Shown here: positions 7,514 through 59,312 of the stretch, one piece after another
Position numbering within the stretch: the stretch's first letter is position 1
How the letters are laid out: the number at the start of each line of letters is the position of its first letter
NCBI GenBank assembly: GCA_020402865.1
Contig: JADBYT010000015.1
Span: forward strand, 1-64,000
DNA length: 64,000 bases
Direction of reading: 5' to 3'
Source: Bacteroidota bacterium
GTDB taxonomy: Bacteria > Bacteroidota > Bacteroidia > Palsa-965
Notes under the pieces: model-generated
The model's database searches: none
What the model was told of the DNA's origin: nothing
What the model saw: only the letters and a program-made list of their open reading frames with translations
Translations under genes and position numbers: made by a program

Positions 7514-7809
7514 GATGCGGGGGGCGGGGAGCAGGTGGTTATTTACTGAACCGGAGGAATGAATATATAGCCTCCCACAATAGATGTGGGAGCAGGCGTG
7601 ATTGCTCCCGCAGTAATTGCGGGAGGAAAGCCGGTAAAACTGAAACAGGTTTTTAGTGCAACGCGCGTTTTGTTTTACCGGCTTGGAGCGTAAAGCACGG
7701 ACAGGTGTTTTTTTGAAACGGGAAAGGTTCGCTACCCTTGAAAAATAATCGTGTGCCGGTTGCAGAATAATTTTCTAGTACCGACCTTTCGCACACTGAA
7801 CCGAAACCT
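7514..7809. other. Intergenic region with paired hairpins
   Basis: There is no gene in this 296-bp gap. It contains the two matched hairpins at 7572-7592 and 7605-7625; the rest shows no open frame or tRNA. The downstream glycosyltransferase begins with GTG at 7810. Confidence 0.7.
7572..7625. repeat. Two REP-like hairpins with compensatory change
   Basis: Hairpin 1 pairs CTCCCACA (7572-7579) with TGTGGGAG (7585-7592). Hairpin 2 pairs CTCCCGCA (7605-7612) with TGCGGGAG (7618-7625). Both have an 8-bp stem and 5-nt loop, 12 nt apart. They differ in the stem only by an A-T to G-C pair change on both arms, so pairing is preserved. No T-run follows, so a repeated palindromic element is more likely than a terminator. 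Confidence 0.8.
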
Positions 7810-56949: not shown

Positions 56950-57663
56950 ATGCAAAAGAAAGAACGTTTTGAGAAAGTAATTCATTGGTTTGAGCAGCAC
57001 ATGCCTGTAGCCGAAACAGAACTGCATTATGGCAATCCGTTTGAACTGCTTGTGGCCGTAATACTTTCAGCACAGTGTACAGATAAGCGGGTTAATCTGG
57101 TGACACCGCCGCTGTTTGCCCGCTTTCCGGATGCCGAATCGTTGGCTGCTGCTTCGCCGGAGGAAGTATTTACATATATCCGCAGCGTAAGTTATCCCAA
57201 CAACAAAGCCAAGCATTTGGTAGGCATGGCCAATATGCTGCTGCACGATTTTGGCGGCGTGGTGCCTGATACGGTTGAACAATTGGTAAAACTGCCCGGC
57301 GTAGGCCGAAAAACAGCCAACGTAATTGCCTCGGTGGTGTATGAAAAACCGGCAATGGCGGTTGATACGCATGTGTTTCGCGTTTCGGCACGGCTTGGTT
57401 TAACCAAAGGAGCTAAAACACCCCTGCAAACCGAGCTTCAGCTGGTAAAATACATACCCGAAAACCGCCTTGCAGTAGCGCACCACTGGCTCATACTGCA
57501 TGGCCGCTACGTATGTGTGGCCCGAAACCCGCAATGCGAAATTTGTCAGTTGACAGCCTATTGTGCCTACTTTCAGAAACTGAGCAAAGCTCCCGCACGT
57601 CCCAAAGCAACAAGTAAAGCTGCAAAACCGGCAAAAAAAGCAGCCCCCAGACCAAAAAAGTAA
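56950..57663 (+). CDS. nth: Endonuclease III
   Basis: A 237-aa DNA glycosylase/AP lyase that removes oxidised pyrimidines. The helix-hairpin-helix LPGVGRKTANVIAS (about residue 115) contains the catalytic Lys, and the catalytic Asp is in MAVDTHVFRVSARL (about 138). The 4Fe-4S cluster ligands follow the C-x6-C-x2-C-x5-C spacing in CVARNPQCEICQLTAYC. After residue 210 a basic tail rich in Lys, Ala and Pro (KAPARPKATSKAAKPAKK) is added. It is absent from E. coli Nth (211 aa) and may help DNA binding. The ATG is preceded by a near-consensus box TTCCTTTG 7 nt upstream. Confidence 0.96.
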   Translation: MQKKERFEKVIHWFEQHMPVAETELHYGNPFELLVAVILSAQCTDKRVNLVTPPLFARFPDAESLAAASPEEVFTYIRSVSYPNNKAKHLVGMANMLLHDFGGVVPDTVEQLVKLPGVGRKTANVIASVVYEKPAMAVDTHVFRVSARLGLTKGAKTPLQTELQLVKYIPENRLAVAHHWLILHGRYVCVARNPQCEICQLTAYCAYFQKLSKAPARPKATSKAAKPAKKAAPRPKK

Positions 57664-57835: not shown

Positions 57836-57909
57836 GGATCGGTAGTTCAGCTGGTTAGAATGCCGCCCTGTCACGGCGGAGGTCGCGGGTTCGAGTCCCG
57901 TCCGGTCCG
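57836..57909 (+). tRNA. tRNA-Asp (GTC)
   Basis: A 74-nt cloverleaf. The acceptor GGATCGG pairs with CCGGTCC (one T-G pair), with discriminator G57909. The D arm is AGTTCAGCTGGTTAGAAT, the anticodon loop CTGTCAC has anticodon GTC at 57870-57872, and the T loop is TTCGAGT. CCA is not encoded (CAA follows). It is followed immediately by a terminator hairpin. The 3' end (57894-57909) is duplicated 103 bp downstream. Confidence 0.97.
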
Positions 57910-57910
57910 C

Positions 57911-57940
57911 AAAGTCCTCGTCGAAAAGACGAGGACTTTT
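57911..57940 (+). terminator. Terminator of tRNA-Asp
   Basis: AAAGTCCTCGTC (57911-57922) and GACGAGGACTTT (57928-57939) form a perfect 12-bp stem around GAAAA, followed by T. Confidence 0.9.
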
Positions 57941-57996
57941 CCATTTCAGCAGGGACGAGAAGTTTATCCCGATCGCAGCGCAGCGAAGTATCGGGA

Positions 57997-58043
57997 AGTC
58001 CCGTCCGGTCCGTAAAGTCCTCGTCATTTCGACGAGGACTTTT
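57997..58043 (+). repeat. Duplicated tRNA-Asp 3' end plus terminator
   Basis: AGTCCCGTCCGGTCCG (57997-58012) is an exact copy of the tRNA 3' end at 57894-57909. It is followed by the same 12-bp terminator stem (58014-58042) with a different loop (ATTTC). The shared tract continues into CATTTCAGC after each copy. The spacer between copies contains a TCCCGAT...ATCGGGA palindrome (57967-57996). It is an att-like or segmental duplication. Confidence 0.85.
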
Positions 58044-58052
58044 GCATTTCAG

Positions 58053-58352
58053 CCATGCCGCGAAGCTGCATGCTTAAATGCTGCAAACAGTTTAAATCGC
58101 CAAAGGCGATATAAACTGTTTGCCAAACTTAAGGCGGTTTGCAACCGCCGGGGCAAATGCATTACACTACTGCCATCTTGCTCGAAATACCTTCAATTAT
58201 CCCCATGCCGCGAAGCTGCATGCTTAAATGCTGCGAACAGTTTAAATCGCCAAAGGCGATATAAACTGTTTGCCAAACTTAAGGCGGTTTGCAACCGCCG
58301 GAGCAAATGCATTACACTACTGCCATCTTGCTCGAAATACCTTCAATTATCC
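58053..58352. repeat. 150-bp tandem duplication with nested hairpins
   Basis: 58053-58202 and 58203-58352 are head-to-tail copies differing at two bases (58085 A / 58235 G; 58152 G / 58302 A). Each copy has a large hairpin: AAACAGTTTA and TAAACTGTTT outside, ATCGCC and GGCGAT inside, an A-A mismatch between and an AAA loop. Each also has a second hairpin, GGCGGTT-TGC-AACCGCC. The 58235 change turns an A-T pair into a G-T pair, so pairing is kept. I see no gene. Confidence 0.92.
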
Positions 58353-58523
58353 CCTAAAAAACCTGGTCAGCCTGCAATTCCCGTTTCCCTACATCCCCCA
58401 AAATCCTCGCAAACAAACTCATTTATGGATTTCGCAAATCAATTGCGTCCAACTTCTGCAACCAAGATCTGATACTGTATTTACATGGTAGTTCTGTAAT
58501 ACTCACAATTTTGACAAACAGGT

Positions 58524-59312
58524 ATGGCTTCCCAACTCCGCATCCAGATTCCCGAACCTTGCTCCGAATCGTGGCTTGAAATGCCTGAAGTAGCAGCCGG
58601 AAAAAGACATTGCGGTGCATGCAACCGCACGCTCACCGATTTCTCGAAGTGGAGTGATGAGCAGTTGATTGATTTCTTCACACACCATAAAGAAAAATTT
58701 TGCGGTCGGTTCAGCGCATCACAGTTAAACAGAAACATGGTTCCGCAGGCATACAAAACACGGTTGTGGCCGAAACTGTTTGTACCGGCATTCCTCTTTG
58801 CGGCCTCCCTTTCAGCACAACAAGTCGCAACACAAACAGCATCCTCACTACAAATTGTACAACAACCAAAATTTCAGATTCGGATAAGCGGCTTTGTATT
58901 ACGCTCCGATTCGCTAAGAGGAGCAGGAGCAAGCATTCAGATTAGTAATGGTATAGATACCGTACATACAATAAGCGACGCAAACGGATACTTTGCACTC
59001 ACATTGAATGCGGCGGCAAATGATACATTGCTTGCAAGTGTTCGTTTATCCGGTTACAACCCGCAACAATCAATCATACAGGTGGCTGAAGGGCAGTTAA
59101 ATTACGTAATGAATGTGCGAATGCATGAAGTACTGATAACAGAAAGCAGGCGTGAAACAGCGGATGGAATGGAAAGGCATTACATGGGCATTCCGGCACA
59201 GTTTGATGAGGTTGTAGTATCAAATAATGTTGTGGGAGCAAAACACATACGAATGCGCCATTTTTTTCACCGCATCTTGCATCCGTTCAAACATAAATGC
59301 ACGAAGCATTAA
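58524..59312 (+). CDS. Cys-rich N-terminal domain / carboxypeptidase-regulatory-like membrane protein
   Basis: A 262-aa protein in three parts. Residues 1-75 form a small cysteine domain (IPEPCSESW, HCGACNRTLTDFSKWSD, KFCGRFSASQLNR) that recurs in Bacteroidota and looks like a zinc-binding treble-clef-type unit. One hydrophobic segment (about 84-100, FVPAFLFAASLSAQQ) could be a membrane anchor. The third part is a carboxypeptidase-D regulatory-like beta sandwich (about 120-200, FQIRISGFVLRSDSLRGAGA). The C-terminus is basic and His-rich (MRHFFHRILHPFKHKCTKH). Function is unknown. The layout suggests a cytoplasmic metal-binding module joined to a periplasmic domain. Confidence 0.72.
   Translation: MASQLRIQIPEPCSESWLEMPEVAAGKRHCGACNRTLTDFSKWSDEQLIDFFTHHKEKFCGRFSASQLNRNMVPQAYKTRLWPKLFVPAFLFAASLSAQQVATQTASSLQIVQQPKFQIRISGFVLRSDSLRGAGASIQISNGIDTVHTISDANGYFALTLNAAANDTLLASVRLSGYNPQQSIIQVAEGQLNYVMNVRMHEVLITESRRETADGMERHYMGIPAQFDEVVVSNNVVGAKHIRMRHFFHRILHPFKHKCTKH

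Follow-up and report, generated by a model that had tools for sequence, protein, structure and literature searches.

The closest described systems to the locus examined here are the REP-type repeats associated with TnpA_REP enzymes, and the text of PMC8266576 states that how REPs are disseminated is unsolved. According to the same text, TnpA_REP proteins of other groups cut single-stranded DNA at CT on either the 5' or the 3' side of the REP, after which a 3'-OH end can be joined to the cut end. In the main text of PMC6006769 (Quentin et al. 2018), subclass 2.6 of these enzymes is characterised by the motifs NH[LIV]H, WQ and YIH[QN]NP and by a median length of 179 aa, while its repeats are described as 'atypical', with no consensus in that text. 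Within the open-licence PMC literature, no account of the anatomy of subclass 2.6 repeats was found beyond that main text.

The window analysed here is a stretch of 64,000 nucleotides from a Bacteroidota bacterium (contig JADBYT010000015.1, positions 1 to 64,000), for which an earlier note had reported a near-identical 150-bp tandem duplication. This was confirmed, as TRF detected a repeat at 58053-58354 (period 150, 2.0 copies, 98% matches, score 590) and a pairwise repeat search aligned 58053-58202 with 58203-58352 at 99% identity. These two stretches are copy 1 and copy 2 of the unit, both read on the + strand and identical at 148/150 positions, with the matching run (150/152) terminating in a 2-bp CC overlap. 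The two units differ at 58085 A / 58235 G and at 58152 G / 58302 A. The first of these differences converts the A-T pair formed with T58121 into a G-T pair with T58271, in agreement with the earlier reading.

The unit folds better than its shuffled versions on both strands (z -4.61 on the + strand and -3.65 on the - strand), and 0/200 shuffles were as good on either. Its main stem, hairpin A, spans 58083-58123 in copy 1, where the fold, the covariance model and covariation define arms of conserved layout around a variable core, and 58233-58273 in copy 2, where sequence and covariance model place it with its one G-T pair. An interrupted stem of 16 bp had been proposed for it; the interruption is present as a single A.A mismatch, but the fold gives 12 + 6 = 18 pairs closed by a 3-nt loop. 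The motif GCTGC, which we term the foot on the basis of a reading of the element copies discussed below, occupies 58080-58084 in copy 1 and 58230-58234 in copy 2. A 7-bp stem, also anticipated, corresponds to hairpin B (GGCGGTTTGCAACCGCC, 58133-58149 in copy 1 by fold and spacing analysis; 58283-58299 in copy 2 by sequence and spacing analysis), the 7 pairs of which are GGCGGTT/AACCGCC. A third hairpin, C, had been missed and was found by folding at the 5' edge of the unit (CATGCCGCGAAGCTGCATG, 58054-58072), with identical letters in copy 2 (58204-58222). Each unit has a tail of about 53 nt 3' of hairpin B. In copy 1 (58150-58202), the own-genome DNA search indicated that this tail is mostly flank and not element, its first part being similar to the copy at C2:156006.

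The units are situated between a tRNA-Asp gene (57836-57910) and an ORF with a CarboxypepD_reg domain match (58524-59312). The ORF at 56950-57663 was assigned by eye as a putative endonuclease III gene. When this gene served as a marker for an empty site in relatives, tRNA-Asp was found nearby at 1/9 loci. Immediately before the 150-bp units, the 3' end of the tRNA-Asp together with a terminator-like hairpin (57894-57949) is repeated as a 56-bp copy, 103 bp downstream (57997-58052, 49/56 identical), possibly as a trace of integration at the tRNA. Between these tRNA-end repeats lies a palindrome, CCCGAT...ATCGGG (57968-57995), and a scan of 464 kb from the same genome for this spaced pattern matched nowhere else. 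Elsewhere in the window, two similar 8-bp hairpins are found 33 bp apart (7572-7592 and 7605-7625), and TRF detected nine 18-bp units in tandem array at 33-200 (CGACAGGCTCAGCCACCG).

An element composed of the foot GCTGC, hairpin A and hairpin B, dispersed and specific to this genome, is present once in each 150-bp unit. Copies were counted across the genome with a covariance model, R1, built from seven element copies, none of them at the tnpA gene described below. At E <= 1, R1 returned 72 matches, of which 55 reached E <= 0.01. These 55 correspond to at least 42 separate places, the seven training copies included, since the near-palindrome is also matched on the opposite strand. This answers the refuting case of no other copies named in the earlier note. 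The E-values are rough, and the 42 places are a lower bound because scoring covered 150 of the 2827 candidates from the first look. In 11 further genomes belonging to the family, the same model gave no match at E <= 0.01. When the own genome was searched at the DNA level with the unit, weak relatives were recovered in the form of arrays of related hairpins. The exact element pattern had 0 matches in a collection of genome contigs that possibly lacks the window's own genome. Plasmid records gave partial matches only, none over more than 80% of the query, and each of the five listed includes the tRNA end. For copy counting, a short core pattern was also tried and discarded as too loose (113 matches, against 36 when read backwards). 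One element lies within a 227-nt stretch (L139 1320-1546, G000:C12) that is repeated 1295 bp apart at L138 and L139.

With regard to location and form, the element was found to be intergenic, to form an imperfect palindrome and to occur in inverted pairs. With simple ORF calls, 34 of 35 element sites could be placed relative to genes, 12 between convergent, 20 between same-direction and 2 between divergent genes. One copy (L119 1501) overlaps a 372-aa ORF, the likely start of which, by eye, is beyond the copy.

The anatomy of the element was established from 35 copies that were read individually. The foot is GCTGC in 32/35, and the arms of hairpin A are closed by GTTT...AAAC in 31/35. The 5-nt arms vary among copies and yet pair at 99/105 positions over 21 unique arm pairs, whereas permuted arms gave a mean of 67.7 and a maximum of 84 in 2000 permutations. 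The core of hairpin A is likewise variable, with 29 forms among the 35 copies. In the model-fitted alignment (set A3: 51 matches, 43 distinct; some of the loci overlap, and some hairpins are matched on the reverse strand as well), two-sided changes were seen in 91 cells as compared with 21.2 (sd 3.9) after shuffling, and 97.5% of cells pair as compared with 33.7-52.7% in slid versions. The centre of hairpin B lies at one fixed distance from hairpin A in 27/32 unique copies, and its sequence is mostly CAAGTCTCCAGACTTG, with GCGGTTTGCAACCGC in the window. At L051, L134 and L136, two head-to-head copies enclose a middle hairpin, an arrangement that resembles a REPIN. Arm mismatches on the foot strand favour G.T over A.C (14 to 3, p 0.013) and core mismatches run in the opposite direction (5 to 10), and the overall strand-choice test was not significant (21 to 13, p 0.23).

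The own genome contains three Y1_Tnp matches. One of these is the tnpA gene at G000:C8:50341-50886 (minus strand), which encodes a 182-aa product with a Y1_Tnp match above the cut-off and the motifs NHLH, LWQ and YIHQNP, in accordance with the motifs and length of subclass 2.6 (RAYT group 5). The gene is single-copy, a search of the genome at E <= 1e-20 having returned a single match. A profile of 15 relatives (A4), in which HxH and the tyrosine are invariant, matched the solved TnpArep 4er8 with an E-value of 1.5e-6. The predicted catalytic tyrosine is Y143 in the numbering of this profile. When R1 was applied to the surroundings of tnpA, it matched two hairpins just upstream of the gene that were outside the training set (36.4 and 33.9 bits; E 3.2e-8 and 1.7e-7 in 87 kb), both at most 164 nt from the gene start. 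These matches provide the link between the element in the window and the enzyme. The chance of a family site falling within 250 bp of the sole tnpA is about 0.4% (42 x 500 / 4.89 Mb). The gene is thus flanked, on its upstream side only, by atypical structures with copies elsewhere, and the element is both near the gene and dispersed, as expected for the repeat of a subclass 2.6 TnpA_REP. Of the two other Y1_Tnp genes, one has GCGCCC palindromes beside it as well as a tandem array of GCGCCCTAGATAAATCCCC, with which the contig terminates (L052 1810-2009), and CTAAACTCTACC-type repeats with a hairpin lie alongside the other (L053 2040-2170).

Related genes were then considered across the class, Bacteroidia, in which a relative at E <= 1e-25 is encoded in 96/295 genomes. 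Counts of perfect hairpins (stem of at least 7) at 35 of these loci gave a density of 3.9 per kb up to 150 bp from the gene and of 0.5-1.0 per kb at distances above 450 bp, and 26/35 loci have one within 300 bp. An inverted repeat common to both flanks (score of at least 15) was present at 36/71 loci, as compared with 0/71 for far flanks, and absent at 35/71. A second set, of 80 named loci, displayed inverted bracketing at 55/77, as compared with 1/77 in the control (54/76 without the locus common to both sets), and none at 22/77. Bracketing of this kind was seen at 1/162 ordinary ORFs of comparable size, taken from 464 kb of the window's genome. Loci whose flank was shorter than 150 bases were left out (4/75 in the first set and 3/80 in the second), and forty extra loci were hand-picked, best first, from the list of relatives, some near contig ends or from the same genome being skipped. 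The own tnpA gene is not one of the 36 bracketed loci.

Several of the bracketing repeats keep the order foot, hairpin A, hairpin B. Mucilaginibacter is an example, with GCTGCCGCGAGTTTAGCG... and, after it, another small hairpin (TTTAAGCTTCCAGCTTAAA in L198), and at L062 and L066 this order is found on both sides of the gene. At the 5' stem edge the commonest trimer was GCT (31/83, as compared with 14/83 on the other side), with CTG at 23 and CGC at 22. A GCT foot across related loci is a modal feature and not a rule. A permuted-foot test was not clean (GCTGC at 11 loci; GCTCG and CCTGG at 12 each), and a model-free ranking of feet was dropped because shifted frames of one stem were counted separately. 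The element of one relative (G209) occurs at four places in its genome, and a search for its pattern in G291 gave none.

Taken together, the element in each unit is likely to be a short, atypical and non-autonomous REP-like repeat, belonging to the population of the genome's single subclass 2.6 TnpA_REP (RAYT group 5, a Y1 HUH single-strand nuclease). Its mobilisation in trans by this subclass 2.6 TnpA is probable. The enzyme would recognise the folded foot strand as single-stranded DNA, would cut near the foot and would spread copies in trans, and the tandem duplication in the window would be a later event. Several observations weigh against this reading, namely the one-sided copies at the own tnpA, the related loci that lack bracketing, the merely modal GCT foot with its permuted controls, the few or no places found in G209 and G291, the strand-choice test and the 27-nt offset of the window unit from the foot. 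The earlier suggestion of a REP-type element is essentially right, as the element forms a palindrome, is dispersed between genes, occurs at times in inverted pairs and lies beside a TnpA_REP-type gene. It is not, however, a canonical REP, since the foot is GCTGC and not GT[AG]G and each element has two hairpins. Subclass 2.6 repeats thereby gain an anatomy, with a GCT-type foot, a hairpin A with free arms and core, a hairpin B at a fixed distance and inverted bracketing of the gene.

The origin of the duplications was addressed through partial copies stacked against the elements. Upstream, 31 partial or full left-end copies were found at 16/35 elements and downstream 4 right-end copies at 4/35 elements, a count biased by the fact that footless partial copies would be missed. 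The partial copies begin with the foot, stop at variable points in or after the core and finish with a few other bases. For a comparison of edges, tandem repeats were detected independently of the foot (n=9, including L119 without an assigned edge; the 227-nt L139 repeat was left out). The left edge of the repeat coincides with the foot (0 nt) at L112, L125 and L132. It lies 3 nt from the foot in a sister duplication at C6 (151-bp unit, 144/151 identical), and 5 nt away both in a second one at C2 (139-bp unit, 127/139 identical) and at L118. The repeat at L115 starts about 8 nt inside the element, and in the window the left edge of the unit precedes the hairpin A foot by 27 nt. At the array junctions, some have 3-6 nt in common with the bases before the first foot and others have none.

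It is quite conceivable, if short of an even chance, that the elements are REP-like but that the duplications and arrays arose independently of TnpA, through replication slippage at hairpins via short homologies. The common bases at the junctions of several arrays would fit such a process, as would the tendency of partial copies to end within the core hairpin or shortly beyond it, at points where a polymerase might stall, and the window duplication itself, with its CC overlap and its start away from the foot. Slippage alone, however, offers no reason for a fixed left end, and the left edges of 6/9 independently found repeats are 0, 0, 0, 3, 5 and 5 nt from the foot; nor does it agree with the junctions that lack common bases. 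A cut at the foot, in contrast, would produce a fixed left end.

The foot-anchored stacks and the sister duplications suggest cleavage at the foot, the sequence of which, GCTGC, contains CT. As similar duplications and short arrays elsewhere begin at the foot, such arrays were likely made by a cut anchored at the foot, after which strands were joined or reprimed. The case is weaker for the window duplication, because it starts 27 nt upstream of the foot. We tentatively put forward a fuller scheme, itself doubtful as a whole, in which the 5'-anchored, 3'-truncated stacks are TnpA_REP products, the foot being cut and joining or repriming occurring at varying points; elements would then grow by foot-anchored partial copying, and the duplications of 139-151 bp, including that in the window, would be long products. 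If true, such growth would answer how REPs spread. The partial copies, with their constant left end, form a fossil record bearing on that question.

A role in RNA, either as a structured RNA or as a transcription terminator acting in the mRNAs of neighbouring genes, is improbable. The strong fold and covarying pairs are compatible with such a role, as is the preference for gene 3' ends apparent from the 12 convergent and 2 divergent sites among 34. Against it, Rfam 15 matched only the tRNA-Asp in the window and nothing on the units at the gathering score, same-direction gene sites hold the element in both orientations (12 co, 8 anti), and the family is absent from the 11 relatives. The structured RNA proposed in the earlier note was set aside on the Rfam result, the mixed orientation and the strong fold on both strands. 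As for a terminator, the two terminator-like matches in the scanned stretch, both hairpin B on the minus strand, compare with an average of 2.1 in shuffled sequence. Inspection by eye led integron attC sites and CRISPR to be set aside as well. That the duplication is an assembly artefact or a neutral one-off doubling of ordinary intergenic DNA is most improbable: the full 150-bp unit has no other high-identity occurrence in its own genome, which is a 49-contig assembly, but the element within it is a member of a 42-place family, and an artefact is unlikely because two similar tandem duplications, those of 151 bp and 139 bp, are present at other places in the genome.

As compared with known systems, the repeats described here are closest to the subclass 2.6 / RAYT group 5 structures of PMC6006769, which they resemble, as far as its main text describes them, in enzyme motifs, in hairpins both beside the gene and elsewhere, and in having no GT[AG]G foot. 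To that text the present analysis adds the GCTGC foot, the constant spacing of the two hairpins, the bracketing of genes by inverted copies and the arrays of partial copies anchored at the foot. Related Y1 HUH enzymes and hairpins near the gene are also found in IS200/IS605 elements, for which several near-identical transposase copies would be expected; here, in contrast, the gene is single-copy, and the repeats bracketing subclass 2.6 genes are inverted copies of each other. The canonical REP, BIME and REPIN elements of E. coli and Stenotrophomonas, as described in the text of PMC8266576, share with the present family intergenic hairpins, inverted pairs, tandem copies and a single-copy Y1 gene of TnpA_REP type. 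They differ in that their foot is GTAG and their copies number in the hundreds, whereas the family described here has a GCTGC foot, two different hairpins per element and about 42 places, the lower bound at E <= 0.01.
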